This document shows, one piece after another, positions 16,756 to 63,585 of a DNA stretch of 64,000 nt. The stretch spans positions 124,001 through 188,000 of the forward strand of contig JAAOZP010000004.1 of NCBI GenBank assembly GCA_011605725.1, read 5' to 3'. The stretch's first letter is position 1. Each line of letters begins with the position of its first letter. The position numbers and the translations under genes were made by a program. This stretch comes from Nitrososphaerota archaeon. Lineage in GTDB: Archaea; Thermoproteota; EX4484-205; JAAOZP01. The notes beneath the pieces were generated by a model. The model ran no database searches, was not told the origin of the DNA, and worked only from the letters and a program-made list of their open reading frames with translations.

Positions 16756-17488
16756 GGTAGACCTCCTCAGGGTAAATCTGACACTTCTCACAGTAATACT
16801 TGGACTCCTCAGGCCTCCAAACGAGTTTAGAGCCGCAGTTCGGACAGAGAGGCGGGGTTCCTAAAGGCGGGATCCTTCCCCTCCCGGTTTCTCCAGCTCC
16901 CGTCTCAACACGCTTAGCAGGAGCAGGGGGAGTCTTAAGAGAGAGAACCAAGTGGGTTAAAACCCCGGACAACACAGCTACTGCAATAATGTTGATTACT
17001 GTTCCGGCAATTATCACGAGTGAGAGGGTTGCTACAGCATCATCCACCGCGACGGATTTTAAAGACAGATCGTACAAGACTGGTTTTAAATCCATATGTA
17101 GAAAGTAGACGCCTAGGGCGGACACCACGGTGACGGAGAAAACTGATGCTTTAACAGCATCGGACACTGAGCGAGACAGAATACTGGCAACGATACTTAT
17201 GGTTACGATAATAGTTAAACAGACTGCAAGCCAAACGCTGGAGTTGAAAAACTGCGTGAAAACATTCACAAGACTCTTGCCTTGAGTCGCAATAGCCTCA
17301 ACGCCGAAGCCCGGGACAGACATTCCTAAAGCGTAAACCCAGGGACTATTGGCAAGACCAGACAGGCTTATGTTTTCACCACTATATTCAATACTGTTTG
17401 AAGGAAGCATGGTTAATATTGAGTCGATCAGCAGTATCGGCGAGAGCGCGAGTAGCGTTAACACTATTACCACCAGAGTTAACCTCAA
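16745..17488 (-). CDS. membrane protein with C-terminal zinc ribbon
   Basis: A 247-residue protein with about five transmembrane helices: an N-terminal one, a pair around residues 85-125 and two around 150-185. A cytosolic tail of ~60 residues ends in a zinc ribbon, CPNCGSKL followed 15 residues later by CEKC. The first helix may be a signal anchor with an extracellular loop of about 50 residues. TTG at 17488 is the likely start. The function is unknown. It could be grouped with the next two minus-strand genes, which lie just upstream. Confidence 0.6.
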   Translation of the reverse strand: MRLTLVVIVLTLLALSPILLIDSILTMLPSNSIEYSGENISLSGLANSPWVYALGMSVPGFGVEAIATQGKSLVNVFTQFFNSSVWLAVCLTIIVTISIVASILSRSVSDAVKASVFSVTVVSALGVYFLHMDLKPVLYDLSLKSVAVDDAVATLSLVIIAGTVINIIAVAVLSGVLTHLVLSLKTPPAPAKRVETGAGETGRGRIPPLGTPPLCPNCGSKLVWRPEESKYYCEKCQIYPEEVYLSI

Positions 17489-33708: not shown

Positions 33709-34151
33709 TTGAAACCAGCCTCCGACAGGATTCTACGGATCTCTCTTAAACCCTCGCTGCTCACACCAGCCTCAGGCAGTCCCAAGAGCCTCCTCTTCTC
33801 AACAGACCCTGGTGTAAACGGGAAGGCTAAGCCCGTCTCCTTCACCTGCTCAACCATCTTAAGGATGCTTGCAGGAGCCTCACCATTATTCTCATACAGG
33901 ACTTCTCTAAGAGCCATAATTATGCTGAAAGGGTTAACACCCTGGGGGCATCTTTCAGAACACAGGGAGCAGGTTGAGCAGAGCCACGGATCCTGGTCTG
34001 GAATCCTGTTGAACCTGGCTATTGATCCAACAATCCTGCGAGGATTGAAACCGTCACGGATAAGGTTAACTGGACAGGTGGAGGTGCATGAGCCGCACTG
34101 AATACATTTAAGAGGATTCCCTGCTCCCTTACTTCTTAACGTTTCAATCAA
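33705..34151 (-). CDS. hdrC: heterodisulfide reductase-type subunit HdrC
   Basis: A 148-residue ferredoxin-like subunit, first gene of the operon. The two 4Fe-4S motifs are CIQCGSCTSTCPVN (about residues 18-31) and CSTCSLCSERCPQG (about 58-71), linking HdrA clusters with the HdrB active site. The upstream region carries an AT box (GTTTAAATATTTTG, 34188-34201) and a perfect inverted repeat at 34210-34225. Confidence 0.92.
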   Translation of the reverse strand: MIETLRSKGAGNPLKCIQCGSCTSTCPVNLIRDGFNPRRIVGSIARFNRIPDQDPWLCSTCSLCSERCPQGVNPFSIIMALREVLYENNGEAPASILKMVEQVKETGLAFPFTPGSVEKRRLLGLPEAGVSSEGLREIRRILSEAGFK

Positions 34152-34209
34152 TTCCTTTTTACCGTTTTCCTAGCGGGCTCAAACCTGTTTAAATATTTTG
34201 AGAAGCACC

Positions 34210-34225
34210 GCCGTTTCTAAACGGC
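34210..34225. promoter_or_regulatory. perfect inverted repeat upstream of the hdr-flx operon
   Basis: GCCGTTT-ct-AAACGGC is a perfect 7-bp inverted repeat lying about 60 nt upstream of the hdrC start, just beyond the presumed TATA element. The spacing suits a dimeric regulator binding next to the promoter. A short RNA hairpin from the opposite strand is the alternative. Confidence 0.4.
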
Positions 34226-34328
34226 AAATGCTTCAAGAGCATGCTCAGCCCCGAAAAACGGTTTAATACAGGACTTATATGGTTCGACATATGCCTGGGC
34301 CGCTGTCGCAATCAACAGCATCACCCGT

Positions 34329-34336
34329 AGCGCGCG
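34329..34336. repeat. GC element AGCGCGCG
   Basis: A copy 6 nt beyond the stop of the beta-propeller gene, with the hdr operon's upstream region on the other side. Confidence 0.45.
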
Positions 34337-34342
34337 AGAAAG

Positions 34343-35521
34343 CTAGTACTCCGCGACCAGCCATATTGTAGAACCCTTGCCCACGCTTATCCTAAGAGTG
34401 CCAAGAGGGTTGTCCAGGGTTCTCCAGCCATGCTTAACCACTCTGAAAGCCTCTTCCACGAAATTCCCCTCTAAATGCTCCTTAATGCTCACAGCCTGCT
34501 GAACTCTGACCGTCAGAGTTCTTCCAGACGGGCAGGACACTCCGAGGAACACTCTCCTCGCGCCCAGGAGATCGTATAAGGGAGGATTATTAACAGTCTT
34601 CTCGTCGAACACCAGCTTGTCGCACATCCTCCCGTAGGTTCTAGCGTCGAAAATATTGAAACCCGGTTCCCAGACCCAGATCTCATGCCTCCACTGCCTG
34701 CTGTAGTCTACAATTGGAAACGGAGGCGTGTGGGACATGAAGAGGCTGAGGAGAACCTTAGGCTTGCCGTCAGGGCCAGTCGTGAAGGAAGGGTGGCCGA
34801 AGTTGCTGTGGCCGTCGTTGAAAGACACAGGCAGGCTAGCGCTCAACCCCCTTACGTTTGGAGCAAGATAGTTCCCGGACATGGCTATCCGCGACCTCCA
34901 GTTCTGCTTGTCTGAGAAATACTCCACGAGAACACCGAACCTGTTGTTAACCCTGAAAGCATCTATAACGTCGTTAGAACCCTCCCAGCCGGAGAAAACC
35001 ATTTCTTCACAAAGCTCCAGAGCGTTCAAGTCGTCAAAATGCTTCACAAGCCGCCAGAGAACCCTGTCCCCCTTTGGGTAGAATATTGCCGCATTCGGGT
35101 TCTGCTCACTATAGTTTCCCATCAAGGTTAGTAGGCCTGCTCCAGAATCCTGCATTCCTTCCAGCAGCTTTCTCGAGCCGAGCTCCCTTAAACCCCTGTC
35201 GAAAAACCTGATTTGCAATGGCCCGCCTTCAGTCGTGAGAACGGTGAAACCGTCTCTCCAAGGATCGTAAATCGCGTTGACAGCATCCCTCGTAGGCGGT
35301 GACGAAAGTATCCTTCTGACTCTGTTAACAGTCATATCTTTCTCAACCTCAGCGAAAAAGACTTCTCTAGAGTTAGCGTTCCTCCAACCCGTGAAGAAGA
35401 GGACCCAGCTTCCCGTCTCAGGATCGTAAACCATCCTCGGTGTTCCAACCCCGCCAGCAATATCCGGAATGCTATCCCTGTACCTGGACGGAACTATCAA
35501 CGGGTAGACTCTTCCAGTCAT
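34343..35521 (-). CDS. beta-propeller protein resembling GH43/GH130-like glycosidases
   Basis: A 392-residue protein without signal peptide. Repeated segments of the type GTPRMVYDPETGSWVLFFTG, FTVLTTEGG, NPNAAIFYP and NFGHPSFTTGPDGKPKVLLS suggest a five-bladed beta-propeller as in glycoside hydrolase/phosphorylase clans F and J or GH130. I cannot place it in a named family or identify catalytic acids with confidence. It is followed 12 nt beyond its stop by an AGCGCGCG element and is divergent from anmK. Confidence 0.55.
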   Translation of the reverse strand: MTGRVYPLIVPSRYRDSIPDIAGGVGTPRMVYDPETGSWVLFFTGWRNANSREVFFAEVEKDMTVNRVRRILSSPPTRDAVNAIYDPWRDGFTVLTTEGGPLQIRFFDRGLRELGSRKLLEGMQDSGAGLLTLMGNYSEQNPNAAIFYPKGDRVLWRLVKHFDDLNALELCEEMVFSGWEGSNDVIDAFRVNNRFGVLVEYFSDKQNWRSRIAMSGNYLAPNVRGLSASLPVSFNDGHSNFGHPSFTTGPDGKPKVLLSLFMSHTPPFPIVDYSRQWRHEIWVWEPGFNIFDARTYGRMCDKLVFDEKTVNNPPLYDLLGARRVFLGVSCPSGRTLTVRVQQAVSIKEHLEGNFVEEAFRVVKHGWRTLDNPLGTLRISVGKGSTIWLVAEY

Positions 35522-35595
35522 GCAAACACATTGAGAAAAACGTTTGAGAACTTATAAACATAGCTTTTGCAAGATTTAAACAGCCACATCCTGAA

Positions 35596-35606
35596 AGGTT
35601 AATATA
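35596..35606 (+). promoter_or_regulatory. TATA box for anmK
   Basis: GGTTAATATATAG lies about 27-33 nt before the ATG of the anhydromuramic acid kinase gene and is the clearest TATA element on the plus strand in this part of the window. Confidence 0.5.
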
Positions 35607-35628
35607 TAGAGAGAGGTTTCCACACGTC

Positions 35629-36834
35629 ATGGAACCCGGCCCGCTGGCTAGGAGGCTTGTCGACAAGATTTTTTCAGAGGAGAGAACTGTAGCCGGGCTC
35701 ATGTCTGGGACGAGTGCTGACGGTGTTGACGTGGTTGCCGTAAGATTGAAGGGTCATGGTAAAGAAGTCAGACATAGGGTTCTCCATAAGGATACTGTAC
35801 CATATCCCGGTGAGCTTAGGAAGTACATACTGGATTCTGTTGAAAAGGGCTCTGTCCACGATGCATGCCTCCTAAACTATCTTGTGGCTGAAGCATTTTC
35901 AAACGCTTTGAAGGATTCTATAGAGTGCTCGAGTATCCGTCTCAGCGAGATTGACCTAATAGGGTCGCACGGGCAGACGGTGCACCATTTTCCGGAGTAC
36001 GTTTCCCTCGGAGGGTTTTCAAGTAGGTGTTCTCTCCAACTAGGGTCAGTTCAAGTCATAGCTGAGAGAACAGGCGTGACGACAGTAGGGAACTTCAGGG
36101 TAAGGGATATTGCAGCCGGGGGGCAGGGGGCTCCGATAATAGCCTACGTTGACTACTCTTTACTCTCAGACCCAAGGAAGGGGAGGCTCGTGCAGAACAT
36201 AGGAGGCATAGCCAACGTAACCGTGCTCCCCGCAGACTCTGGAGTCGGAAACGTATACGCTTTCGACACGGGCCCTGGAAACAGCCTGATAGACTTTGCA
36301 GTAGCGATGCTGTATCCAGGTTTAACCTATGATCCTGAGGGCGAAATCGCTTCCAAGGGTTCCTGCGACGAGGAGGTTTTGAAAGAACTCATGGCCCACG
36401 AATACGTTGCCAAGCCGCCTCCGAAAACCACTGGAAGAGAAGTTTTCAGCAGCTCTCTCGCCAAAAGGATTGTTGAGAAAGGGCTTGGTAAAGGCCTTTC
36501 TAAGGAGGATGTTGTCGCTACTTTGACGATGTTCACCGTTAAAAGCATTGTTAAAAACTATGATCTTTTCATACTACCGAGGGTTAGGGTTGAGGAGGTT
36601 ATCGTTGGGGGAGGAGGTGCTAGGAACAGGACTCTCATGAAGTATCTCGAAGAGGAATTGGAGGAAAGAGGCCTGAGGCTGCTTAGACACGAGGATGTGG
36701 GAATCGACTCAAAGATTAAGGAGGCCCTTGGCATGGCTGTGCTCGCACACGCCACTCTAAGTGGTGTCCCCAACAATATACCTGGAGCCACTGGGGCTGG
36801 GAGAAGCGTTGTAATGGGGGAGATCGCCCTATAG
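35629..36834 (+). CDS. anmK: anhydro-N-acetylmuramic acid kinase
   Basis: A 401-residue AnmK that phosphorylates and opens 1,6-anhydro-MurNAc to MurNAc-6-phosphate. LMSGTSADGVDVVAV (about 24-38) is the diagnostic phosphate loop, SHGQTVHHFP the catalytic region, GNFRVRDIAAGGQGAPI and NIGGIANVTVLP follow, and GGGGARNRTLM is the C-terminal loop. Archaea lack murein, so the substrate would come from bacterial wall debris or be a related anhydro-sugar. Its 3' end overlaps the convergent beta-lactamase-fold gene by 6 nt. Confidence 0.92.
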   Translation: MEPGPLARRLVDKIFSEERTVAGLMSGTSADGVDVVAVRLKGHGKEVRHRVLHKDTVPYPGELRKYILDSVEKGSVHDACLLNYLVAEAFSNALKDSIECSSIRLSEIDLIGSHGQTVHHFPEYVSLGGFSSRCSLQLGSVQVIAERTGVTTVGNFRVRDIAAGGQGAPIIAYVDYSLLSDPRKGRLVQNIGGIANVTVLPADSGVGNVYAFDTGPGNSLIDFAVAMLYPGLTYDPEGEIASKGSCDEEVLKELMAHEYVAKPPPKTTGREVFSSSLAKRIVEKGLGKGLSKEDVVATLTMFTVKSIVKNYDLFILPRVRVEEVIVGGGGARNRTLMKYLEEELEERGLRLLRHEDVGIDSKIKEALGMAVLAHATLSGVPNNIPGATGAGRSVVMGEIAL

Positions 36835-37911
36835 GGAGGACACTAATAGGTTGTGGAAAACAGGTCTAAACCTCATTATCTTATTGTTCTCCCTGCTTGG
36901 GTGGACCCTGTTGCTTAAAAGGACAGCTACAAGCTTTTGCTCAACATCTATGCATATCGAGGTCCCTGTGAAACCCGTGTGACCGAAAGCCCTCCCATCC
37001 GTCATCAGGTCTCCAAATGCCTGTGTAACCGTCTTCCTGTAGACTTGCCACCCAAGCCCGTAGCAGTAATCGTCACCAACCCATGGGCTGAGCATTGTCG
37101 CCGCAGTAGCCTTTTTAACTAGGCAGTCGCTTTTACCAAGGTAGGCTTGAAGCAGTTGGTTCCCCACCAGCCCGACCTCTTTCGAAACGGAGAATAGTCC
37201 AGCATGACCCGACAACCCGCCCAGTGCCCTAGCGTTCTCATCGTGGACAACCCCGGTCAGGGGGAGGCCGGTCGCAGGATCGGTTTCCGTCGAAGCAATC
37301 TCGTTCTCTGAGAATCCATGGCTCAGAGGATTGTAAACCGTCTTTCTCAAGCCCAGGGGTTTAGCGACGAGCTTCTCGAAAAGCCTGTCTATCCTTTCCC
37401 CAGCGACTCTCTCCAGTATCGCTGTGAGAACAATGTAGCCTATGTCGCTGTAGACGACATTCGACCCCGGTGGACAGTTGATGAATGATCTCGCAGCCTC
37501 CTCGAGAAGCTCCTCCCTACTGCTCTTGCCCAGCTTGTATAATGGGGCCCACGCAGGGAGGCCGGCGGAGTGAGAGAGCAGCATCCATATCTCTGTCCTG
37601 CTTTTAAGCTCATCATGCCCTGCATTAGTTGCAGAGTATTCCGGCAGAACTTCTGAAACCCTCTGCTTCAAGTGCAGAAGACCCTCCTCCATAAGCCTGG
37701 CGGTAACGATCGATGCAGCAAGAGGTTTAGTTAAGGAGGCAAGGTCATACAGCGTCTCTATAGAGGTGTTTCTTCTCGAAGGAACAGTCTCGGCATATCC
37801 GAAAGCCTCCTCGTAAACAAGCTTATCGTCCTTATAGACCGCTACTGAAGCTCCTGGGAAAACGTCATTAACAGCATTGGCGAGAGCTATCCTTAGGCTG
37901 TCGAAGCTCAT
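36829..37911 (-). CDS. serine beta-lactamase/class C-like hydrolase
   Basis: A 360-residue penicillin-binding-protein/beta-lactamase fold hydrolase without signal peptide. The SxxK motif is SLTK (about residue 59), YSDIGY provides the Tyr-x-Asn-like motif, and FGHTGFTGTSI the HTG motif. Proteins of this kind hydrolyse D-amino acid peptides, esters or beta-lactams. Convergence with anmK and the neighbouring oligopeptide ABC genes suggests use of murein-derived peptides (inference). Confidence 0.85.
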   Translation of the reverse strand: MSFDSLRIALANAVNDVFPGASVAVYKDDKLVYEEAFGYAETVPSRRNTSIETLYDLASLTKPLAASIVTARLMEEGLLHLKQRVSEVLPEYSATNAGHDELKSRTEIWMLLSHSAGLPAWAPLYKLGKSSREELLEEAARSFINCPPGSNVVYSDIGYIVLTAILERVAGERIDRLFEKLVAKPLGLRKTVYNPLSHGFSENEIASTETDPATGLPLTGVVHDENARALGGLSGHAGLFSVSKEVGLVGNQLLQAYLGKSDCLVKKATAATMLSPWVGDDYCYGLGWQVYRKTVTQAFGDLMTDGRAFGHTGFTGTSICIDVEQKLVAVLLSNRVHPSRENNKIMRFRPVFHNLLVSSL

Positions 37912-37970
37912 TGCTCTGAGAGTTTTTAATCGAACCCACTACCTTATATTATTTGTGGCAGAAGCGCATC

Positions 37971-37995
37971 TGTTTATCCCTAAACAAACAGGGAT
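37971..37995. terminator. weak hairpin after the OppF-like gene region
   Basis: TCCCT-aaacaaac-AGGGA forms a short stem in the gap between the beta-lactamase-fold gene start and the OppF-like gene end. It could be a terminator for the ABC operon, but the stem is only 5 bp and no clear U-run follows on that strand. Confidence 0.25.
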
Positions 37996-38048
37996 TCTAT
38001 TCCTGTTCGCGGAGAGAGCGCGTTAAACTTAAGGAGACACAGTGTTTC

Positions 38049-39056
38049 TCATTGAGGATTGAAGCATGCGACGAAACGGCGGTTCCGGAGTTCTGCTAGT
38101 GGAGGAGTTTTCTTGCTGCATTCTTCGGTCCTGAATGGGCAACGCGGATGAAATCGACAGCCTTTAGGAGGATCTATAGCGCTTGCTATTTCTCCTGTTG
38201 CTCCCAATCTTCTTTTAGGCCGGTCGCCAAAGCCGAAGCTTGCAGAAGCCGATAGTAGGAGCTGTGAATATGGATGAAACTGGTGACTCATGAAGTCTTC
38301 TATCGGAGCTATCTCCATTATTTTTCCAAGGTACATTACTATTATTCTATCGCAAGTATAATATGCTACGCGAAGGTCATGTGTCGTAAGCAAGTATGTT
38401 AAGCCGTATTGATTCTTTAGTTCCATCAAAAGATTAAGAATACCCGACCTAATGCTGAGGTCAAGCATTGAAACGGGCTCGTCTGCTATGAGGAACTGTG
38501 GCTTAACGGCTAATGCTCTGGCTATTGCAACTCTTTGCCTTTCACCCCCACTAAGTTCATGCGGGTATTTATCTATAGCATCTTCAGAAAGACCGACACT
38601 TCTCAGCAGATCGATACAGTATTCTCTTATCTTATTCTTGTCTTTAACAATACCTTGTACGCGCAGTGGGAATGCTATCGTTGAGAAAACAGTTAGGCGC
38701 GGGTTTAACGATCCGTAAGGATCTTGAAAGATCATCTGAACCATCCTTCTATAGTTTTTCAAATCCTTGCCACGAAGAGACATGATATCCCTCCCCTGGA
38801 AAAGGACCTTGCCCTCAGTCGGAGGTGTGAGCCTTGCGATAACCCTTCCAATCGTAGTTTTGCCGCTCCCGCTCTCCCCAACAAGGCCGAGTACTTCACC
38901 AGAATCTATGAAGAATGATACATCGTCCACTGCATAAACATATTTTCTCCTGATAAGACTACTTGTCTGGGCTGGGAAATACACTTTAAGATTTTTTATT
39001 TCAAATAAATGAGGGTTTTTGCTTAAAAAACTAGCATTGCTCGCTTTCTCCATCAT
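38049..39056 (-). CDS. oligopeptide ABC transporter ATPase (OppF/DppF type)
   Basis: A 335-residue ATPase with Walker A GESGSGKTT (about residue 60), Q-loop, signature LSGGERQRVAIARAL, Walker B LIADEPVS, and the C-terminal cysteine-rich Opp extension (CRFHPRCPFRTEEC). It energises uptake of peptides or oligosaccharides. It is translated after the OppD-like gene, with a 4-nt overlap. The partner permease downstream of the promoter is truncated (40018-40535) and no binding protein is present, so the transporter is likely orphaned. Confidence 0.92.
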   Translation of the reverse strand: MMEKASNASFLSKNPHLFEIKNLKVYFPAQTSSLIRRKYVYAVDDVSFFIDSGEVLGLVGESGSGKTTIGRVIARLTPPTEGKVLFQGRDIMSLRGKDLKNYRRMVQMIFQDPYGSLNPRLTVFSTIAFPLRVQGIVKDKNKIREYCIDLLRSVGLSEDAIDKYPHELSGGERQRVAIARALAVKPQFLIADEPVSMLDLSIRSGILNLLMELKNQYGLTYLLTTHDLRVAYYTCDRIIVMYLGKIMEIAPIEDFMSHQFHPYSQLLLSASASFGFGDRPKRRLGATGEIASAIDPPKGCRFHPRCPFRTEECSKKTPPLAELRNRRFVACFNPQ

Positions 39057-40012
39057 GAAACCACCTTATGGCAGGCAACATAGTGGCCTTGCCCCACTTC
39101 AATAAACTCTGGTTTTTTGCTAAAGCATCTTTCCATGGCGATTGGGCAACGTGGCCTGAATCTACATCCTTTGATTTCAGCAGCAAGGTCAGGGGGAGAC
39201 CCGGGTATTGACCAGAGTTTCTCTCCTCTACGCGTAAGGCTCATTAAAGACTTGACTAAACCATCCGTATAAGGGTGAAGCGGGTTTGAAAGGAGGCTCT
39301 TCGTATCAGCCATTTCCACAAGCATTCCAGAGTACATTACTGCAATCCTATTGCTGAATTCGGCAAGAGTTGAGAGATCGTGAGTAATAAATAGTACTGA
39401 GAGACCAAACCTCTTCTTCATATCCCAAAGCACCTCTAGAACCTGTCTTGCAACCACCACATCCAGTGCCGTTGTAGGCTCATCGGCAATCAAGAGAACA
39501 GGGTTTAGAGCAAGAGCCATAGCTATGATCGCTCTTTGACGCATACCGCCGCTATACTGGTGAGGATAATCGTTCGCCCTTGACTCATCTATACCTACAA
39601 GAGAAAGTAGTTGCTTAGCTCTTGATATTGCATCACGCTTAGACACACTTTCATGCACCATAATCGCCTCAGCTATCTGATCGCTGACCCTATGCACAGG
39701 GTTTAAGCAGTTCATTGCATTTTGAAAGATCATTGATACTTTCTTCCACCGATAAGCTCTCAAATCCTCTTCCTTAAGGTTCAAAACATCTATACCGTCA
39801 CAAACAATTCTTCCACCTATTATCTTCCCAGGTGGCTTAATCAATCTCAGAATCGCGTAGGCAGTTGTACTTTTCCCACAACCAGATTCCCCGGCAAGAC
39901 CAAAAACTTCTCCTCTATCAACGTGAAATGTAACACCGTCAACAGCCTTAACCTCGCCTTTTCGAGTGAAGAAGCTTACGTGCAAATCTTGGATAGAGAG
40001 CACCTGACTCAT
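39053..40012 (-). CDS. oligopeptide ABC transporter ATPase (OppD/DppD type)
   Basis: A 319-residue ATPase with Walker A GESGCGKSTT, signature YSGGMRQRAIIAMAL, Walker B LIADEPTTALD, and the OppD C-terminal CRFRPRCPIAMERC cluster. It is a partner of the OppF-like gene. It starts 5 nt after the remnant permease gene. Codon use looks like that of the neighbours, but the block from 38 to 43 kb is slightly more AT-rich, compatible with acquisition of a sugar/peptide-use island. Confidence 0.92.
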   Translation of the reverse strand: MSQVLSIQDLHVSFFTRKGEVKAVDGVTFHVDRGEVFGLAGESGCGKSTTAYAILRLIKPPGKIIGGRIVCDGIDVLNLKEEDLRAYRWKKVSMIFQNAMNCLNPVHRVSDQIAEAIMVHESVSKRDAISRAKQLLSLVGIDESRANDYPHQYSGGMRQRAIIAMALALNPVLLIADEPTTALDVVVARQVLEVLWDMKKRFGLSVLFITHDLSTLAEFSNRIAVMYSGMLVEMADTKSLLSNPLHPYTDGLVKSLMSLTRRGEKLWSIPGSPPDLAAEIKGCRFRPRCPIAMERCFSKKPEFIEVGQGHYVACHKVVS

Positions 40013-40017
40013 TTTTC

Positions 40018-40535
40018 TCAGTAGCTCCTGAGCCTCGGATTAGCGATAGTATTTATTGCAGAACCAAGCAAGTGTATCCCTAAACCGATCAGTGCAATGC
40101 ACAAGCCTGGTGCCGTGACCCAAGCCCAGCCCATGTTATACACAGCTCCCCCCATGTTTGCAAAGTATATTACAGTCCCCCAACTCATTTGGGAAGGGTC
40201 TCCTAGACCAAGAAAGCTGAGGGATGCCTCTGACATGATTCCTGAGATGATCGTCAATATCGCATTTGCCATCACAAGTGGCAGTATGTTAGGCAATATA
40301 ATAGAAAAGGTTATTCGAAGTTGACTGGCACCACTCATCCTTGCAGCATCAACATATGCTCTTTGCTTGACAGTTAAGGCTTCAGATCTAACTATTCTAG
40401 CCATTGCGGGCCAACCGAATGCCGAAAGAACTATAATAATGTTGAAAACACCCCGGCCTAACAATGCCGCAGTGAAGATCGTTAATGGAAGCTTCGGTAT
40501 TATTATGAGCACATCACAGAACCTCATGAGCGCGC
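40018..40535 (-). pseudogene. oligopeptide ABC permease (OppC/DppC type), 5' half missing
   Basis: The C-terminal ~170 residues of an OppC/DppC permease: LMRFCDVLIIIPKLPLTIF (in part), the EAA loop ARIVRSEALTVKQRAYVDAAR (in part), and SFLGLGDPSQMSWGTVIY. A full OppC has about 280-300 residues, so the signal segment and the first membrane helices are gone. The frame enters straight from the AGCGCGCGCGCGCT element at 40529-40542; the nominal ATG 40527 is an internal Met. No frameshift is seen in the rest. The oppB and binding-protein genes are absent, so it is not functional as part of this transporter. Confidence 0.88.
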
Positions 40536-40542
40536 GCGCGCT
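40529..40542. repeat. GC-alternating palindrome joining two truncated divergent genes
   Basis: AGCGCGCGCGCGCT is the longest copy of the element. The minus-strand permease frame and the plus-strand glycosyl-hydrolase-like frame both run outward from it with their 5' portions missing. This is the clearest case of the element sitting at a breakpoint. Confidence 0.8.
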
Positions 40543-40944
40543 ATTATTGCAAATGATTTTTCACCTAATCCGGATGATTATGAATCAGTGGTTAAGGCGC
40601 TGGGACAGGATTGGATCTCTTGGGTTAATGAGGGCCTACTAGACTTCGCTGAGCCTATGATATACTGGACCGAACCAAAGGATTTTGGAACGATTGTTAG
40701 AAATCTGATGAACAGGATAAGAGATAAGAGTTTTCCAATATATCCTGGTATCTTAGTGTCGAACGACTACGTTATTGAACCTAATAAGGTGATGGAGTAC
40801 GCCAAGAAGTCCATTGATGCTTCAGGTTCTGGAATTACACTGTTCCAGTATGCCAGCTGGTGTGCCTCTCATAGGAGGTCCTTAGGGCTACCTGAGATAA
40901 GGGACTATGATCAAGAACTTATCAGGTTAAGGGAATTACAATAA
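40543..40944 (+). pseudogene. C-terminal remnant of a GHL10-like (DUF187) glycosyl hydrolase
   Basis: About 134 residues of open frame, beginning within the GC element and reading IIANDFSPNPDDYESV, then GQDWISWVNEGLLDFAEPMIY, which is the conserved strand pattern of the glycosyl-hydrolase-like 10 / DUF187 TIM barrel, then FPIYPGI and a C-terminal helix. A GTG at 40588 is internal. Full proteins have 350 or more residues, so the first two-thirds are missing. No frameshift is seen in what remains. Confidence 0.75.
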
Positions 40945-41076
40945 CTGACATCATCCTTTAAGTCAAAACATCCATGAAATAACTTGCTATGCTTAACTAG
41001 TGGGGCAAGCCCGGTAAAATAGCAAGATTATCATCTGACAACTTAGCGTGCTTACAAGCTGTGCATCAATCTTCTT

Positions 41077-43089
41077 CTATCTGCACCTATACAATATAAG
41101 CGTCGAATCAGGATTCTTAGCCAAATGAACCTTAAGCCCCTCATCCATGAGTTCCTTACCGGTCAGGGTTCTCTTCTCCCCCGTGTCCAGATCAGTTATT
41201 TCATAATGAGCATCAGGCTGTAGTTCACGAAGCCTGAAGACAGCGTCAGTCAAAGGGCTTAAGCGACGTTTCAGCACTACTACCAGTCCCTCAGCTAAAT
41301 CAGGGCGATCAAGCTGGTACGCCATCCAAGCCTCTTCAGACTGAGTGTAAGGGGTTAGCGGATAATAGTCGCCATAATAAAACTTTCTAATACTTAAGTA
41401 CTGGTTGAGCTTCTTTCTCACCGAGTTGAAAACCGTTTCTCCCCCAGAGATACTTTCTTCAATTCCTAGAGTAAAAACCATGCTTGCGCACATTACACTA
41501 CGGAACGCGTAGTCGTCAGCCTTCGCCATGTTTAAACCTCCTGCTCCGAAAAGCGGTATCCAAAGGAGTAGACCGTAAACATGACACTGGTTTGCAACAG
41601 GCCCGTCTATGAAATCCGTAGACCAAAATGGCGTGCTTCGTCCAATCGTTTCCAAGTCGATTCGACGACCCCCGCTTGCACAATTATCTATAATAAGATT
41701 AGGATGCTTTTGAAGAAGATCGTCCCAGAAAGCGTAAAGCCCTTCCACGTATCTGATTTCAGTAATCCCCTGCCTGTCTTCAGAGTCCGCATTACGCCAG
41801 AACCTTAATGGAGCAATATTAGCGTCATGCCTGTAGCAATCAATATGGAATTCAGCAATCCGATTCGAGATGAAATCCGTGAGGAAGCGGCGCGCCTCAG
41901 GATTACCAAGGTTAAACAGCGCGTCTCCTTCAGCAATCTGGTTCCGACGGCTTTCGAAGAAAACCCATGCTGGATCATTCTTGTCAAAGTAGTGCGGCCA
42001 GCTGAAAACCGTGTCCACACTTTTAATCTTAAGCAGCCAGTTGCAATGCTCACGATACCAGGGCGTATCTTTGCAGACTCGTTCAGGCTCAAACCAGAGT
42101 GAAAGCTTACGCCCAGATTTATGAAGCGTGGCAGCGATTTCTTTAAAGCCCTCCGGATAAAGATCCTCCCTAACCTCCCAGTTTCCCACGTTTTTCCACC
42201 AAGGTTGGCCTCCAAACCACTCCGCATCGATCCAGTAATATTCAACTGGAAGATCGTGATTAATTATTTTCCCTATAGTATCTAAATGGGTTTTTGCAGG
42301 AGTCCCACCCCAGCTTGAGAAAAATACTGGTGCAACTAGTGGTTTACCGTCTACGGAAGGACGGTGGTGAGTGAGAATAAATCGCCGCAACATGTTTTGA
42401 CCACGCATCCAATCCTTGCTCCAGAATAGCAGTAGAATTCGTGGAGACCTGATTTCCTCACCCGGGTAAAGCCTTAGATTCGTAGTCTCCATGCCGGCCT
42501 GCAAACGCAACTCGTTTCCACTGCTACGTTTGAACAGTGCTGCCCACTCGCCAGTCCAGCCGATCGCAAGTATTACGCCTTCCTCCTCCATTTCAATATT
42601 GAAAAACGGTAGGAATTCGCTGGAGGACCGTCCGCCACCGGGTCGAAGCAAGAATTCTTCGTCAAGATTAAGGTCTTTCTGAATAGGCATAAAATCGTCA
42701 ATTGAGGCGAGAGCACCTTTAGCATAATGAAGAGTAAACCGGTTTCTCTGACAATGCATTACGACATCCAGTGCCTGAATGCTCTTGATAATCGGCGTAG
42801 TTTCCACAGAAGCATTCTTAAAGTATAAAACCCATTCTAATGCTGGAAAATCACGATACTCGATTAAGATACATCTTACCTGTAACCCTGTCTCACTATC
42901 GTTATGAAGCATCACGTGTTCAATGCGTTCACCGTCCAGCTGCCGCGTGGCATGCGCGAAATCCCAGTTCCTCAATAGATCTTTAGAAAACCTGCCACCA
43001 TACGTGAATGAGAACGGAGGATCTGTACCGGATATAAACCTGGTTAAAACCCGTTGCACAGCAGCCGTTTCAACAGGAGAAACATTCAT
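41077..43089 (-). CDS. GH36-family alpha-galactosidase
   Basis: A 670-residue clan-D alpha-galactosidase. The TIM barrel has WIDAEWFGGQPW, KLSLWFEPERV, DCYRHDANIAP (nucleophile Asp region), NCASGGRRIDLETI and FWSTDFIDGP (acid/base Asp region). The N-terminal beta supersandwich precedes it and a C-terminal beta domain follows. There is no signal peptide, so it probably cleaves imported galactosides. It lies next to the oligopeptide/oligosaccharide-type ABC ATPase genes and a GH3 gene on the same strand. Confidence 0.9.
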   Translation of the reverse strand: MNVSPVETAAVQRVLTRFISGTDPPFSFTYGGRFSKDLLRNWDFAHATRQLDGERIEHVMLHNDSETGLQVRCILIEYRDFPALEWVLYFKNASVETTPIIKSIQALDVVMHCQRNRFTLHYAKGALASIDDFMPIQKDLNLDEEFLLRPGGGRSSSEFLPFFNIEMEEEGVILAIGWTGEWAALFKRSSGNELRLQAGMETTNLRLYPGEEIRSPRILLLFWSKDWMRGQNMLRRFILTHHRPSVDGKPLVAPVFFSSWGGTPAKTHLDTIGKIINHDLPVEYYWIDAEWFGGQPWWKNVGNWEVREDLYPEGFKEIAATLHKSGRKLSLWFEPERVCKDTPWYREHCNWLLKIKSVDTVFSWPHYFDKNDPAWVFFESRRNQIAEGDALFNLGNPEARRFLTDFISNRIAEFHIDCYRHDANIAPLRFWRNADSEDRQGITEIRYVEGLYAFWDDLLQKHPNLIIDNCASGGRRIDLETIGRSTPFWSTDFIDGPVANQCHVYGLLLWIPLFGAGGLNMAKADDYAFRSVMCASMVFTLGIEESISGGETVFNSVRKKLNQYLSIRKFYYGDYYPLTPYTQSEEAWMAYQLDRPDLAEGLVVVLKRRLSPLTDAVFRLRELQPDAHYEITDLDTGEKRTLTGKELMDEGLKVHLAKNPDSTLILYRCR

Positions 43090-43239
43090 CCTTACCGCCT
43101 CAGCTTGCAGGAAAGCCCTAACCGGATTTAAGGTTTAACAAGTATCCGCAACCAGACTGCAGCTTGAATAGAAATACGCATCATGAGAAACGGCTGATAC
43201 TGAGGAAGCAAATCCAGCTTTTTGAAAAACCCTAGTTGT

Positions 43240-45390
43240 TTAACTAACGATTAGCCTGTTTACGAGCCTAATGTCCCTTGAGGAAGAACCCACCCTTACC
43301 TCATACTCTCCCTTCTCGACAACCCATTTCTCACCATCATAGCTTGCAAGCATGTCAAAATCCAGCTCAACCCTTATCCCTTCCTTCTCACCAGGGTTTA
43401 GAAGCCTCGTCTTATGAAACCCTTTAAGCTCTTGAAAGGGCTTGTCCACCCTGCCCTTCGGCGCCCTGACATAGACTTGGGCAACCTCTTTCCCCGGGAG
43501 GCTTCCAGTGTTCTCAACCTCGAAGGAAACAATCACCCTATTGTTAACCACCTCAACCATTAGACCCCTGTATTCGAAGCTGGTGTAGGAAAGACCGAAG
43601 CCGAACTCGTAGGCAGGCTCAACCCCGAAACTATCGTAATACCTGTAGCCAACGTATATCCCCTCGTCGTACACGACTCTCTGCGGGTTCTCCCTCGGCT
43701 TCCCTGGGAAGCTCCAGGATGGAACATCAGAATAATCCATGGGGAAGGTTGTTGGAAGCTTGCCAGACGGGTTTCTCTCGCCCGAAACAATGTCGGCAAC
43801 TATCCTCCCCGTCTCCTGGCCAGCCTGCCACGTTAACAGGATTCCGTCAACCATGTTCCTCCAGCTGGCGACCTCTATCGGGGATCCTATGTTCAACAGT
43901 GCTACAACCTTCTTACCATGCTGATGAAAAGCTTTAGAAACCCTCTCCACCAGGGTTCTCTCGTCATCGCTCAAATAGAAGTCTCCCTTCTCAGGCTTCC
44001 TATCGTAGCCCTCACCCGATATCCTGCTTATCACGATGATTGCGACATCATTTCTCTCCGCAAACCTGCTTATCTCCTCCTCACCTAGAAAATCCTGGGG
44101 AACCGGTTTAAAGACTTCCCCGAACATTGTTTTCTCAATCCTGTATTCAGCCCTACTCCTGATCTCAGCCAAGTATTTCGCATGGGTCTCCGCAAGCTCC
44201 TCGTCTATCCTCAGGCGTTTCTCCCTCATCCCGTCGAGAATAGATATTACGTACCTCGGATGAGTGTCACCGCTTCCAGTCCCGCCTTTAATGGTCTCTA
44301 TCTGGCCTGTTCCGAAGAGAGCTATTTTAGCATCCTTTCCCACGGGCAATGCTCCATCGTTCTTAAGAAGGACAACTCCCTCCACGCCTGCCTCATAGGC
44401 AACCCTGGCGTGAGCATCGAGATCAGGCTTGTTAGAATACTCGTATCCTTTGAAGGAAGGGGTGTTGACTAGAACCCTTAGAATGTTCTTCACATTCCTT
44501 ATGAGGGTTTCCTCATTAAGCCTCCCTTCTCTAACAGCATTAATTATCGCCTCCACCTCGTCCTTCCTGCTGGGGTCGACCTGATTCGCCTTCCCAGGCA
44601 TTATCATATCGTTGCCAGCCCTCATCATCTCCACAGGATCGTCCTTCGCAAACCAGTCTGTCATCACGAAGCCTTCAAACCCCCAGTCGCACCTCAGAAC
44701 CCTCGTCAGAAGCCACTCGTTCTGCGAACAGTGTTCCCCGTTCAGCTTATTGTACGCGCTCATAACTGTCCACGGCTTAGACTTCTTAACAGCTATCTCG
44801 AAACCCTTAAGATATATTTCTCTAAGCGCTCTTTCAGAAACAAGCGTGTCGATCAGGAAACGGTTTGTCTCCTGATTATTGGCTGCAAAATGCTTCAAGC
44901 AGGCGCCGACGCCTTGAGACTGAACACCCTTAACGAAGGCTGCAGCCATCTCCCCGGTGAGAAGAGGATCCTCAGAATAGTATTCGAAATTCCTTCCACA
45001 TAAAGGATTCCTGTGAATATTCATCGCAGGCGCGAGAAGAATATCCACGCCATACTCCCTAACCTCCTCGCCGACACATCTGCCAACAGCCTCCAGCAAC
45101 TCCCTGTTCCAAGTTGAAGCGAGCATTGTCTCAACGGGGAAAGCCGTAGAGTGATACGTTTTATCATCATTCTCCCTCCGAGGGTTTATTCTCAATCCGG
45201 CGGGCCCGTCTGCCAAGACGGCTGAAGGTATTCCAAGTCTTTCAACAGGATGGGTCTCGCCAGCAGCACCTGGAACTCTTGGAGGAGGGTTGCCGAACAT
45301 GCCGGGTATGCCTATTCCAACAACGATCCTAGCCTTCTCCTCAAGAGTCATCCTAGAAACAATATCTGGAACCTCTTTCAGAGTCACCAA
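43240..45390 (-). CDS. GH3-family beta-glucosidase with fibronectin III-like tail
   Basis: A 716-residue retaining glycosidase. It shows VLADGPAGLRI, GRNFEYYSEDP, KHFAANNQETNR (the Lys-His-Phe motif) and GFVMTDWFAKDDP with the nucleophile Asp, then the (alpha/beta)6 sandwich and a C-terminal fibronectin III-like domain (about 620-716). The KHFAANNQE form is that of beta-glucosidases/xylosidases, not of NagZ. No signal peptide is seen, so it is cytoplasmic. Confidence 0.93.
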   Translation of the reverse strand: MVTLKEVPDIVSRMTLEEKARIVVGIGIPGMFGNPPPRVPGAAGETHPVERLGIPSAVLADGPAGLRINPRRENDDKTYHSTAFPVETMLASTWNRELLEAVGRCVGEEVREYGVDILLAPAMNIHRNPLCGRNFEYYSEDPLLTGEMAAAFVKGVQSQGVGACLKHFAANNQETNRFLIDTLVSERALREIYLKGFEIAVKKSKPWTVMSAYNKLNGEHCSQNEWLLTRVLRCDWGFEGFVMTDWFAKDDPVEMMRAGNDMIMPGKANQVDPSRKDEVEAIINAVREGRLNEETLIRNVKNILRVLVNTPSFKGYEYSNKPDLDAHARVAYEAGVEGVVLLKNDGALPVGKDAKIALFGTGQIETIKGGTGSGDTHPRYVISILDGMREKRLRIDEELAETHAKYLAEIRSRAEYRIEKTMFGEVFKPVPQDFLGEEEISRFAERNDVAIIVISRISGEGYDRKPEKGDFYLSDDERTLVERVSKAFHQHGKKVVALLNIGSPIEVASWRNMVDGILLTWQAGQETGRIVADIVSGERNPSGKLPTTFPMDYSDVPSWSFPGKPRENPQRVVYDEGIYVGYRYYDSFGVEPAYEFGFGLSYTSFEYRGLMVEVVNNRVIVSFEVENTGSLPGKEVAQVYVRAPKGRVDKPFQELKGFHKTRLLNPGEKEGIRVELDFDMLASYDGEKWVVEKGEYEVRVGSSSRDIRLVNRLIVS

Positions 45391-45648
45391 TCCTAATCCA
45401 CTGGAATGAACAGTTTAAAGATTATTTAAGTTTTTCATTCGATACGAGATTAAAGCTAGCCTTAAAGAATTAAACCATGTTGACCCTGATTAGAATGATT
45501 GCTTCCCATACCTCTGAAAAACTTACACGAAACCCGTAAGCCGAATTTTTAGCATCAAGACGCGAAGTTTTAAGGAGAACGGCTTTTTAGATGCAGCTTA
45601 TACTTGAACCTCCTTTAAACAGTTTTTGAAAACGGAAACATTACGATA

Positions 45649-45966
45649 TTATTCTCTTCTCTCCACGATTATCTTACACTTTGTCGCTATAGCTGCAATA
45701 ACTCCTAGGGCAGCCATCCATGGTGCTAAGATGGCACCTATCACTCCTACAGTAGCAGGGATTTCGAGCAGTGTTTCATCCTTCTCGCTTTTCACAATTA
45801 TTCTTGTAACATTCCCTTCATGAATAATGTTTTTAATCGTTTTAACAAGATCATCTGAAGAAACCGCGTATTCCTCTCTTGAAACCTTTCCAACGGGGGA
45901 GCCGCATGCGGAGCAGAAAGCAGCGTCATCAGGCAGTTCCCTACCGCACTTCTGACAATGCTTCAA
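45649..45966 (-). CDS. zinc-ribbon plus DUF4342 small protein
   Basis: A 105-residue protein starting with a zinc ribbon (CQKCGRELPDDAAFCSAC, residues 4-21) followed by a DUF4342-type domain (VKTIKNIIHEGNVTRIIVK, then LLEIPATVGVIGAILAPWM) with one hydrophobic helix that may insert in or lie on the membrane. The function is unknown; DUF4342 proteins are often fused to small sensor or ribbon modules. The 258-nt gap to the GH3 gene has AT boxes and no further gene that I can see. Confidence 0.7.
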   Translation of the reverse strand: MKHCQKCGRELPDDAAFCSACGSPVGKVSREEYAVSSDDLVKTIKNIIHEGNVTRIIVKSEKDETLLEIPATVGVIGAILAPWMAALGVIAAIATKCKIIVERRE

Positions 45967-45991
45967 ACATCTTCCACCTCATAATAGGATT

Positions 45992-46297
45992 CTAAAGAAA
46001 GTTTTTAAACTTTTTTAAGGACGCTAAGCCACTATTCTTCTCATGGAGCCACCTTAACCCTCCGGGCCAGCCTTTACTCGACATCCCAAGGATAAAGCGA
46101 TAATACTCGTTTATTTTGCTCACAGCATAGCTATAATCCTTCCAACGCCACAAGAAGTAGTTTGATACAGCCGCTCGCCTGAATTGACCGACTGTCGTGT
46201 AAAAAGTGGATTCTCCCCTCTAATGACGTTCGATAAGACTGTGATTATCCCAAGTGGATGCGGGCTTACCCTCACGGTATTGGTAAACAACATTAGC
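45992..46297 (-). pseudogene. frameshifted gene remnant ending at a GC palindrome
   Basis: Reading leftward from the GC element, a first frame gives about 25 sensible residues (NTVRVSPHPLGIITVLSNVI), then a shift to another frame gives about 75 residues to TAG at 45992: GESTFYTTVGQFRRAAV, then NYFLWRWKDYSYAV, then WPGGLRWLHEKN. The composition is clearly protein-like, but there is no start and at least one frameshift, so it is a decayed 3' portion. The family is not recognised. Confidence 0.5.
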
Positions 46298-46304
46298 GCG
46301 CGCT
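46295..46304. repeat. GC-alternating palindrome AGCGCGCGCT between two remnants
   Basis: A perfect 10-nt core with a minus-strand remnant on its left and a plus-strand remnant on its right, both lacking 5' ends, the same arrangement as at 40529-40542. Confidence 0.75.
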
Positions 46305-46517
46305 TTAAGAATCAAGTGTTTCCAACAGTTCTATGTGCACGCGACGTTAACAGTGTATACCGCGTTCTTTGGCCCAAGAATACATGTACTTTGGGACTCA
46401 ATGTCTACACCAGAAGTACTCGTAGCTCTACCTGTTTTAATGCTTGCAACCCTGGTTCACAAGTACCTTATAAAGGAATTGAGCGCGCCGTATTCCAGTT
46501 CTTGGAAATCACGTTAG
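46305..46517 (+). pseudogene. short gene remnant, possibly a sugar ABC permease C terminus
   Basis: A frame reading out of the GC element gives about 70 residues to TAG 46515-46517: FQQFYVHATLTVYTAFF, then VLVALPVLMLATLVHKYLI. The last part resembles the final helix and RYLIKGL-type end of MalG-like sugar permeases, after which family members continue with a TFGAVK-type tail; here the sequence changes at AGCGCGCC (46482-46489). A GTG at 46335 is internal. The identification is weak. Confidence 0.4.
46482..46489. repeat. GC palindrome variant AGCGCGCC
   Basis: An imperfect copy where the permease-like tail changes character and where another frame (46487-46618) begins, so it looks like a second junction inside the same mosaic. 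Confidence 0.5.
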
Positions 46518-46618
46518 AGCCCCTGAACACCACAACCATCCTGCGACTCTTCAAGACTATTATTGTAGGTTCGTCAACGCCTCTTGAAGATTTGAGACCG
46601 GAGAACACAATACTATAG
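46487..46618 (+). pseudogene. short C-terminal gene remnant of unknown family
   Basis: A frame starting inside the AGCGCGCC element gives 43 residues (VFQFLEITLEPLNTTTILRL, then a hydrophobic strand and PLEDLRPENTIL) ending at TAG 46616-46618. It has no start codon of its own, but the amino-acid pattern looks like the end of a real protein. It is placed end to end with the remnant before it. Confidence 0.35.
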
Positions 46619-46837
46619 GGTTCGCAGCGGTATAGAGCGCATCACGCTACATGTCCACCAACCAGTCCAGGTTAGCAGCTGCTATTATCCTCCGGATAAC
46701 GAACATAATCTCGTCTTCATACTCCAACTCGCTTGTAGCACTGCTAACCTTCATCCTTTTTCAACCTGTTCCTGACTTAGCTCGGGTCTTTCAACGAATT
46801 GATTAACATAGCTAACCCACACCGGTTTTCCCTCGGC
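46619..46837. other. intergenic remnants on the minus strand
   Basis: On the minus strand a start-less frame gives KPVWVSYVNQFVERPELSQE and stops, and a 35-residue frame beginning ATG near 46751 (MKVSSATSELEYEDE, then LDWLVDM) follows in another frame. They look like one short damaged gene, but the identity is not clear. No promoter or RNA was recognised. Confidence 0.3.
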
Positions 46838-47290
46838 TTACTGCTTTCCCCTCCGGGACGAGAACACTGCCTCCGTGCCCAAATAGGAGTTTAAACCCTC
46901 TGAAGTCAACAGGATGAATACGATGCAGGTACTCAACACCCCGGTTAGCAGATTTACTAGATGAGGCATCATCCTTATGACAATGGTTTCGGAATCAATC
47001 TTTCCGGACGATATTTCAGAGAGAAACGGGATGAAACCGTAGAAAGTGGAAAATACCCCTAGGACTGCGAAAACCGTGAAAACAAGCAGGGAAACTGAGA
47101 ACGTTATTATTCCCCGCAGCCTGTAAAACATTATGATGAGAATAATGCAAAGGAATATGAGCAGCAAGTCACCAATCATCCACTTTTTAAAGAAATACGC
47201 TTTCAGAAGCCAAGAGACAAGCCAGGAAACCATTATTGCTGAAATGAATACGGCCACCAATCGGAGCTCCATGGGTTTCTGCTGGGACAA
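46838..47290 (-). CDS. four-helix membrane protein of unknown function
   Basis: A 150-residue protein with four predicted transmembrane helices (about 8-28, 35-52, 60-82 and 108-130) and charged loops; the C-terminal tail (SSRRGKQ) is basic. I do not recognise it. It lies between the mosaic of remnants and the UroD-like gene and is divergent from the latter. Confidence 0.5.
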   Translation of the reverse strand: MSQQKPMELRLVAVFISAIMVSWLVSWLLKAYFFKKWMIGDLLLIFLCIILIIMFYRLRGIITFSVSLLVFTVFAVLGVFSTFYGFIPFLSEISSGKIDSETIVIRMMPHLVNLLTGVLSTCIVFILLTSEGLNSYLGTEAVFSSRRGKQ

Positions 47291-55045: not shown

Positions 55046-55196
55046 TCATTCAGGCTCTTCGCTTAAAAAGGGATTCGTTCTTTTCTCCTTGCCGATGCTT
55101 GAAAAAGGTCCGTGACCAGCGTAACCGAAGTATCATCAGCCTATTCCTTATGTAGGGGACTATTTCTTCGAAAGATCCCCGAGAAGGTCGGTAGCG
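55046..55196 (-). pseudogene. metallo-beta-lactamase-fold hydrolase, C-terminal remnant
   Basis: Reading leftward from the GC element at 55193, one frame gives GSFEEIVPYIRNRLMIL and, after a shift, another gives GHGPFSSIGKEKRTNPFLSE and TGA at 55046. Both parts match the end of glyoxalase II-like MBL hydrolases (TDLPGGSYEEL, then YPGHGPxTTIGxEKxxNPF). At least two frameshifts are needed, and the metal-binding N-terminal HxHxDH part is missing. The break at the 5' edge is the GC palindrome. Confidence 0.75.
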
Positions 55197-55202
55197 CGCG
55201 CT
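55193..55202. repeat. GC-alternating palindrome AGCGCGCGCT at the MBL remnant edge
   Basis: A perfect 10-nt core. The MBL remnant begins at it on the left; to the right, 76 nt on, lies the AEC transporter gene. Confidence 0.7.
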
Positions 55203-57888: not shown

Positions 57889-58194
57889 AGTGATGTCGAA
57901 ACAGGTGTAAGGAGAAGGGTCTCGGCAATCTTTCAGCTGATAGAGACACGGCTCTCCATAGCTTCATGAAGCTTGGTTTCTGGTCTAAGCACCCTTGTTC
58001 CCTGCGAGAGAATATGGAAGAAGCAGTTAAGGGCGATTTGGTCAACGATGCTGAAACGGGGAAGAGGTTTAACAGGATGCGGAAACGATACTTAAAAGTT
58101 GAGAAGCAATGTTTTCCAACTTTAGGCATGACAAGTTTAGCGCGCGCTGACTCCAGATTTAAAAGCTTTAACTTTCCATCAGGAGTTTAGAAGC
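57889..58194. other. intergenic stretch with a GC palindrome
   Basis: This 306-nt gap contains AGCGCGCGCT at 58139-58148. A 74-codon frame from 57966 crosses it but has a biased, unconvincing composition; I cannot support a gene. The stretch up to 58138 could be a decayed gene. The last 45 nt contain the promoter region of the oxidoreductase gene (TTTAAAAGC). Confidence 0.35.
58139..58148. repeat. GC-alternating palindrome AGCGCGCGCT
   Basis: A perfect core preceded by TTT, 47 nt before the oxidoreductase ATG. Confidence 0.65.
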
Positions 58195-59319
58195 ATGAGT
58201 CCACTTGGGAAGGTGCATGTAGGAGTAGTAGGCGGAGGCTTCGGGTCTGTTTTCAAGTGGCATAGTCATCCGAATTGCATTGTGGAAGCAGTATGCGACC
58301 CTGTTCCTGAAAAACGTAAGCGTTTAATGCAGGTTTACAATTGTGAAAAGTCGTATGAGAATCTTGAGGAGCTTTTGCAGGACCGGAGGGTTGAAGCGGT
58401 CGCCCTCTTCACTCCCGCGCCCCTTCACGCTGAGCATGCTGTCGAGTGTTTGAAATCTGGGAAACACGTCTTATGCGCGGTTCCAGCCTGCATGACGCTG
58501 GAGGAGGCAAGTATGCTTCTCGAGACTGTTAGGGAGACAGGTTTGAACTACATGATGGCTGAGACTAGCTGGTATCATCAGGCAGTAATCTCGGCGAGAA
58601 AATGGTTTAAAGAGGGAAGGTTTGGCAGAATATTCTACACGGAGGCTGAATACTATCATCCAGGATTAGCGTCGCTATTCTTTGACAATAATGGCAATAA
58701 GACTTGGCGCTACGGGTTCCCCCCTATGCTTTACCCTACGCACTGCACTGCATACCTAGTTGGAGTTACTGGAGAGAAGATGGTTAGGGTTTCCTGCGTA
58801 GGATGGGGAGACGATTCTCCAATTCTCAAGAATAATGCTTACAACAATCCTTTCTGGAACGAGACCGCGTTTTTCATAACAGATAAGGGTAATGCCTTCA
58901 GGGTGGCCGTCTACTGGAACGCTCCCGTCGGCCCTTGTGAAAGAGGACAGTGGATTGGAGAGAAAATGAGTTTCTTCGAGCCTCACCCTAATGGCACTAA
59001 ACATATTGTCTGGAAGGCTGGAAGCAGCCCTTTAGACTTGCCGCAGATGGTAAGCTATGAACAGGCAGAATGGTGGAGGACAGATATTCTTCCAGAGTCT
59101 TTGCGTCATCCGAGTGGACACGATAATTCTCATAACTTCATAATTCATGAGTTCATTCAGTCCATTGTCGAGAAGCGTTCTCCAGCTGTCGGAGTCTACG
59201 AGGCTCTGGCCATGACTATTCCAGGCATAATTGCTCACCAATCGGCCTTAAGAGGAGGAGAACAGATGAGGATCCCAAGGCTTGAGCCTGGGAGCGCGCG
59301 CTTTCACGCCAGTTTCTAA
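58195..59319 (+). CDS. Gfo/Idh/MocA-family oxidoreductase
   Basis: A 374-residue NAD(P)-dependent sugar oxidoreductase. VGVVGGGFGSVFKWHSHP begins the Rossmann fold, FTPAPLHAEHAVECLKSGKHV follows, with the AVPAC segment in the place of the usual EKP motif (C replaces K), and the C-terminal alpha/beta domain has HDNSHNFIIHEFI. Loss of the catalytic lysine position suggests altered chemistry. The last six residues lie beyond an AGCGCGCGCT element (59293-59302), so the original C terminus may have been cut and extended. Confidence 0.82.
   Translation: MSPLGKVHVGVVGGGFGSVFKWHSHPNCIVEAVCDPVPEKRKRLMQVYNCEKSYENLEELLQDRRVEAVALFTPAPLHAEHAVECLKSGKHVLCAVPACMTLEEASMLLETVRETGLNYMMAETSWYHQAVISARKWFKEGRFGRIFYTEAEYYHPGLASLFFDNNGNKTWRYGFPPMLYPTHCTAYLVGVTGEKMVRVSCVGWGDDSPILKNNAYNNPFWNETAFFITDKGNAFRVAVYWNAPVGPCERGQWIGEKMSFFEPHPNGTKHIVWKAGSSPLDLPQMVSYEQAEWWRTDILPESLRHPSGHDNSHNFIIHEFIQSIVEKRSPAVGVYEALAMTIPGIIAHQSALRGGEQMRIPRLEPGSARFHASF
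59293..59302. repeat. GC-alternating palindrome AGCGCGCGCT inside the 3' end of an oxidoreductase gene
   Basis: A perfect 10-nt core within the last codons (PGSAR) of the oxidoreductase frame; one of few copies that lies in coding DNA. Confidence 0.6.
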
Positions 59320-63575: not shown

Positions 63576-63585
63576 AGCGCGCGCT
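63576..63585. repeat. GC-alternating palindrome AGCGCGCGCT
   Basis: A perfect core followed by AAACTAG, 50 nt to the right of the previous variant, in the gap between the 63118 gene and vapB. Confidence 0.65.

Follow-up and report, generated by a model that had tools for sequence, protein, structure and literature searches.

What kind of event leaves two divergent genes without their 5' parts, both cut at the same 14-nt GC palindrome? The question is raised by a locus in the draft genome of a Nitrososphaerota archaeon (2.23 Mb in 20 contigs; assembly GCA_011605725.1, here G000), which we analysed within a stretch of 64,000 nt (the window; positions 124,001 to 188,000 of contig JAAOZP010000004.1). 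The other genomes of the genus are denoted G001 to G007, and with relatives at ~75-97% DNA identity base-level comparison is possible. We read the palindrome, AGCGCGCGCGCGCT, as the scar of an end joining that would have deleted the segment running from mid-oppC to the middle of a GHL10-like gene by a Ku-independent GC tailing route, and we give this reading a probability of about three in four. The repair of double-strand breaks in archaea without Ku is a long-standing question, and primase-promoted end joining was proposed only in 2025, in one organism.

The truncated locus and its history in related genomes

The locus comprises the following features (window coordinates):
37912-43260, no strand: block missing in G004 and present only as relics in G003, by comparison with relatives
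38049-39056, minus strand: oligopeptide-type ABC ATPase, intact; ~100 bp of its 3' end is a relic in G003
39053-40012, minus strand: oligopeptide-type ABC ATPase, intact (ABC_tran and oligo_HPY models)
40018-40527, minus strand: OppC-type permease, 3' part, with the 5' third lost at the scar (Opp4C and BPD_transp_1 models)
40529-40542, no strand: AGCGCGCGCGCGCT, exact 14-mer; probable join scar, the long form A(GC)6T of a genome-wide A(GC)4T motif
40543-40944, plus strand: GHL10-like glycoside hydrolase, 3' part, with the 5' two thirds lost at the scar

As the preliminary description had claimed, the oppC and GHL10-like genes lose their 5' parts exactly at 40529-40542, and the two ABC ATPase genes to the left of oppC are full length (319 and 335 aa). 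The minus-strand oppC frame starts right at the motif. In a profile search it matched positions 21-183 of the 184 in BPD_transp_1; its homology to NCBIfam Opp4C reaches the motif edge and covers only model positions 113-277 of 278, so about 112 N-terminal OppC residues are missing. On the other side, no stop interrupts the plus-strand frame between the motif and 40944. This frame has a weak match to Pfam GHL10, below the Pfam cut-off (positions 228-291 of 311, E 0.0054), and is 32% identical (E 1.9e-8) to a paralogue, a 339-aa frame on G000:C3, starting from about residue 230 of the latter. The open frames on both sides are consistent with a recent event. No oppB or binding-protein gene was found between or beside the ATPase genes among the ORFs listed for window positions 34000-47000; judging from the usual make-up of such operons, the loss of both at this locus is plausible. 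When N-terminal homologues of OppC were compared with 739 kb of the 2.23-Mb genome, only weak matches were obtained, and the missing 5' parts may have been moved elsewhere by translocation.

Relatives were searched for the orthologous block, a step the preliminary description had proposed. In G004, the flanks of the block (window 37911 and 43261) are 177 bp apart, with no block sequence in between. G003 retains both outer edges in the same order: ~100 bp from the ATPase gene's 3' end directly abuts the final 130 bp of GHL10, and the GH3 gene follows. The order from ATPase to GHL10 is therefore older than the split between G000 and G003, and since the block is ancestral, the event in the window would most simply be an internal deletion. 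The join in G003 has no GC motif, and the scar is also missing at other indels; some deletions thus bypass the scar-making route. The GHL10-like relic of G003 (G003:C142:16714-16842), which adjoins the ATPase relic, has two in-frame stops; here the block decayed independently, and no GC scar is present.

The GC motif and rearrangement joins

The exact 14-mer is present in 2 copies in the 2.23-Mb genome; with up to 2 mismatches, 4 copies were observed in the window compared to 0.08 expected by chance. The decamer AGCGCGCGCT, or A(GC)4T, occurs 88 times in the genome, mostly in intergenic DNA, versus 2 times for the reversed control, and 27 copies were seen in 348 kb where a third-order model predicts 0.26. 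Runs of n = 3, 4, 5 and 6 in 348 kb number 12, 27, 9 and 2, respectively, with the peak at n = 4. On contig C4, 36 of the 46 GC runs of at least 8 nt lie outside called ORFs, as judged by crude ORF calling. Two bases are conserved on each side of the run, giving TA(GC)4TA, with no signal further out, and therefore the copies are not surrounded by a larger repeated element, which rules out a shared mobile element around each of them. Microsatellite expansion was also rejected: n peaks at 4 without a microsatellite-like decay, the phase is GC and not CG, and the flanks are fixed.

Other copies in the window, and one orthologous site without a scar, are:
2922-2933: A(GC)5T copy, intergenic
8590-8600: A(GC)5 copy with C as the right flank, intergenic
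45453-45563: orthologous intergenic stretch at which G003 and G005 share a scarred deletion of ~0.2 kb; no scar in G000
46295-46304: A(GC)4T copy, in sequence without alignment to relatives
55193-55202: A(GC)4T copy, intergenic
58139-58148: A(GC)4T copy, intergenic
59293-59302: A(GC)4T copy, at an ORF end
63576-63585: A(GC)4T copy, intergenic

Within the genus, G000 with its 88 copies of AGCGCGCGCT is followed by G004 (32), G003 (18), G006 (6) and G005 (3), and G001, G002 and G007 have 0 each. G005 carries a T-flanked form of the motif. Its scars favour TTGCGCGCGCAA over TAGCGCGCGCTA, as observed at G005:C3:15001-15792, and the base before the tail therefore differs between close species. Run lengths in G003 and G005 are biased to n = 4 by the search pattern used, and GC runs that appeared as shared sites and proved to be ordinary coding sequence were left out of the scar counts. 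What is apparently the longest scar in the sequence compared is a 16-nt (GC)8 run that breaks a GHL10-like gene, together with a frame change, at G000:C14:20939-20956. Scars seem to be concentrated in islands such as G000:C4:188001-208000 (L054), where GC palindromes occur about once per kb and both PIN-type toxin genes and broken genes are present. This island also contains non-coding repeats of ~100-190 bp (L054:13862-13960 and 16780-16974), with copies at C4:38301, 69836, 70884, 211232 and 212156 and in other genus genomes.

Like the one at oppC, the other exact 14-mer (G000:C4:34291) stands at a chimera. There, a frame that opens with the first 103 residues of a PIN-domain protein (profile positions 2-87 of 120) crosses the motif uninterrupted and ends as the C-terminal part of an Ig-domain surface protein. 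We ruled out a reciprocal exchange between these 14-mers, both on C4, as neither copy carries the halves missing at the other.

Comparison with relatives allowed joins to be followed base by base. Relative to G004, G003 and G005 have in common a deletion of ~0.2 kb, with local substitutions, between the GH3 gene and its neighbour, a region of which G000 still has part of the middle. At the join both G003 and G005 have TAGCGCGCGC, and nothing similar is found in G004. On G005:C3, ~118 bp of a gene has given way to an unrelated segment of ~775 bp that is bounded on either side by TTGCGCGCGCAA, and on G004:C42 ~90 bp stands in place of ~0.9 kb, with one motif per end. In a further class, just 3-4 bp are replaced, as seen within close pairs: CGTT-CAG-AAGC versus CGTT-GCGCGCGC-AAGC, and TTTCT-GGAA-AAGAA versus TTTCT-AGCGCGCGCT-AAGAA. 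The GH2 gene on C4 ends exactly at a motif where the G004 frame continues, a gene on C1 of G000 is cut at a scar by comparison with G005, and a relic of a radA paralogue on G000:C12 starts at a motif.

Over all sequences compared, 9 alignments end at motif edges, compared to a mean of 0.56 and a maximum of 3 in 200 shifts for the shift null; a GC-rich bias of small indels in general was not seen. For each join examined base by base (the G003/G005 deletion, G005:C3, G004:C42, the 3-4 bp swaps, the GH2 gene and the C1 gene), no motif is present at the breakpoints in the uninterrupted relative, indicating that the motif was made during joining in these cases. Sequence comparison thus shows that the scars occur where rearranged DNA was joined, and that the parental sequences examined lack them. 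We conclude that A-GCGCGCGC-T is a short de novo tag at DNA rejoining sites in this archaeon and its closest relatives. The preliminary description had placed a deletion, or a joining of two ends, exactly at the palindrome; this holds, whereas its view of the palindrome as a pre-existing element does not.

Origin of the scar

Could the join be artificial, with unrelated contigs fused at a GC palindrome during amplification or assembly? The genome is a draft, GC hairpins are hard to sequence, and the two exact 14-mers coincide with chimeric ORFs or a double truncation, all of which would suit a chimera. However, the scarred deletion with its local substitutions is present in the separate assemblies of G003 and G005, motif joins occur in at least four assemblies, and the 3-4 bp replacements are not assembly joins. 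In addition, the motif spans 8-14 nt, and assemblers normally use overlaps longer than this. Because joins in several related genomes bear a motif of the same type, and two separately assembled species have one scarred deletion in common, a chimera is decidedly unlikely and the join at 40529-40542 is most likely real.

If the join is real, the motif might still be a target rather than a product. Site-specific recombination at A(GC)4T, with segments swapped between pre-existing copies as at integron attC or phage att sites, would account for a palindrome that is of defined length, dispersed, and clustered in islands at a spacing of ~1 kb. We consider this quite improbable, since the breakpoints of unrearranged relatives offer no parental target site, joining entails loss or replacement of base pairs, unlike conservative recombination, and the flank preference is just two bases and depends on the species. 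The decamer may also be read as GCGC doubled between A and T (AGCGC-GCGCT), with n peaking at 4, as if a transposon with a 4-bp duplication had left its target behind upon excision. Nevertheless, the empty sites of the relatives do not contain AGCGCT, bases are replaced and not duplicated, filler is bracketed by two scars in both G005 and G004, and the joined deletions differ in length, making an excision footprint very improbable. Finally, strong over-representation and intergenic placement would be compatible with a selected regulatory or architectural motif (a protein-binding site, a terminator or a HIP1-like element) that is at the junction by chance. This, too, we judge very unlikely given that alignments break at the motif above chance, that it interrupts genes, and that its position is not conserved among species, save for the shared scar and coding-phase runs.

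We therefore favour the end joining by GC tailing proposed above for AGCGCGCGCGCGCT, and we infer tail addition, annealing and the type of enzyme as follows. Some double-strand breaks in the genus would be repaired by a Ku-independent route; no Ku was found in the eight genus genomes, with a positive control. To the 3' ends, preferably T-A (T-T in G005), a short tail of alternating G and C would be added without a template. As a tail of this kind is complementary to itself, any two tailed ends could pair; the self-complementarity of (GC)4 would fit annealing via short GC microhomology. Filling and ligation would then leave TA(GC)nTA, usually with n = 4, and the constant 8 nt may represent the shortest overlap stable enough to hold two ends. 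The outcome would depend on which ends are joined: the two sides of one break would yield a replacement of 3-4 bp, joining across a break that was resected or double would give a deletion, as at the window locus, and unrelated fragments would give a filler with a scar at each end. The likeliest enzyme would be an archaeal primase-type polymerase, either the replicative PriS or a PriS-like protein encoded with a second radA. A reverse transcriptase as the tail maker was ruled out, as RVT_1 had no match in the genus.

We found no description of this scar in the open-access literature searched. With a recognisable scar, end-joining events of the past could be counted in natural genomes, so that part of a genome's repair history could be read from its sequence, and effects on gene content such as chimeric genes, island remodelling and filler capture would be revealed. 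Annotators should note that a chimeric ORF at a GC palindrome may, in these genomes, be genuine.

Known systems and a candidate enzyme

The closest parallel is Prim-Pol-promoted microhomology-mediated end joining (pp-MMEJ) by PriSL of Saccharolobus islandicus, a Ku-less repair of double-strand breaks by terminal transfer and annealing through 2-4 GC pairs (PMC12019639). Both are archaeal, operate without Ku and give small indels, and the joins described here carry indels and added nucleotides, a trait of pp-MMEJ; template-independent terminal transfer, established there, would apply here as well. In pp-MMEJ, however, most indels are of 1-2 bp with C insertions, whereas the same fixed 8-nt (GC)4 palindrome, flanked by T-A, is found repeatedly in the genomes studied here, accompanied by large deletions, filler capture and a co-occurring radA-linked PriS-like gene. 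PriS-like enzymes have terminal transferase activity (PMC3973330). The literature surveyed describes no archaeal primase that transfers strictly alternating GC.

End joining by Ku and LigD, as in bacteria and Methanocella paludicola, resembles our case in the nucleotides added at joins and in the use of an AEP superfamily polymerase at broken ends, for which we have a candidate, and differs in its Ku. Polymerase theta end joining and TdT N-additions are similar in their short insertions, filler DNA and annealing of short 3' tails. Polymerase theta, though, usually copies its inserts from sequence nearby and TdT adds nucleotides at random, whereas the insert here is a single, fixed palindrome of alternating G and C.

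Of the 8 genus genomes, 7 have PriS-type genes. Besides the replicative PriS, a search for the primase small subunit revealed another, PriS-like protein; in G004 it has 258 aa and is encoded at G004:C30:6902-7678. Its gene overlaps the end of an additional radA, and this second radA is 51-54% identical to the ordinary RadA of the genus. This two-gene module is located at G000:C7:378074-379757, G003:C132, G004:C30 and G006:C89, and is absent from G001, G002, G005 and G007. In 53 other relatives the PriS-like protein is absent, with at most distant PriS-type matches, and a viral source was rejected, as IMG/VR holds no relative. Three of the four members score above the cut-off for PF01896. The catalytic motifs VIDVDN, FSGARGFHIHV and SVDP align with Pyrococcus PriS, and the catalytic DxD, SGxRGxH-type and third Asp regions are thus shared with archaeal replicative and plasmid PriS (Pyrococcus 1g71/1v33; PolpTN2, PMC3973330). 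Unlike these, the candidate overlaps a second radA gene, is 258 aa long and falls far below the PriS equivalog cut-offs. Structure prediction for the four sequences was poor (mean pLDDT 39).

The four genomes that hold the module are the four with the most AGCGCGCGCT, by a post hoc count over eight related, partly incomplete genomes. G005 has T/A-flanked scars without the module, and the replicative PriS may therefore suffice. That the PriS-like/radA module makes the scars is thus only a lead. Our broader suggestion is tentative, and we hold it well short of even odds: the RadA paralogue and the PriS-like protein might carry out Ku-less joining via self-complementary GC tails, stamping many joins with TA(GC)4TA and letting the cell delete, shuffle and capture segments. 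A recognisable scar would point to a specific enzyme pair for purification and testing. Degraded copies of the module are present in G000, G003 and G004, and in G000 a Y-family polymerase gene lies directly upstream of the module.
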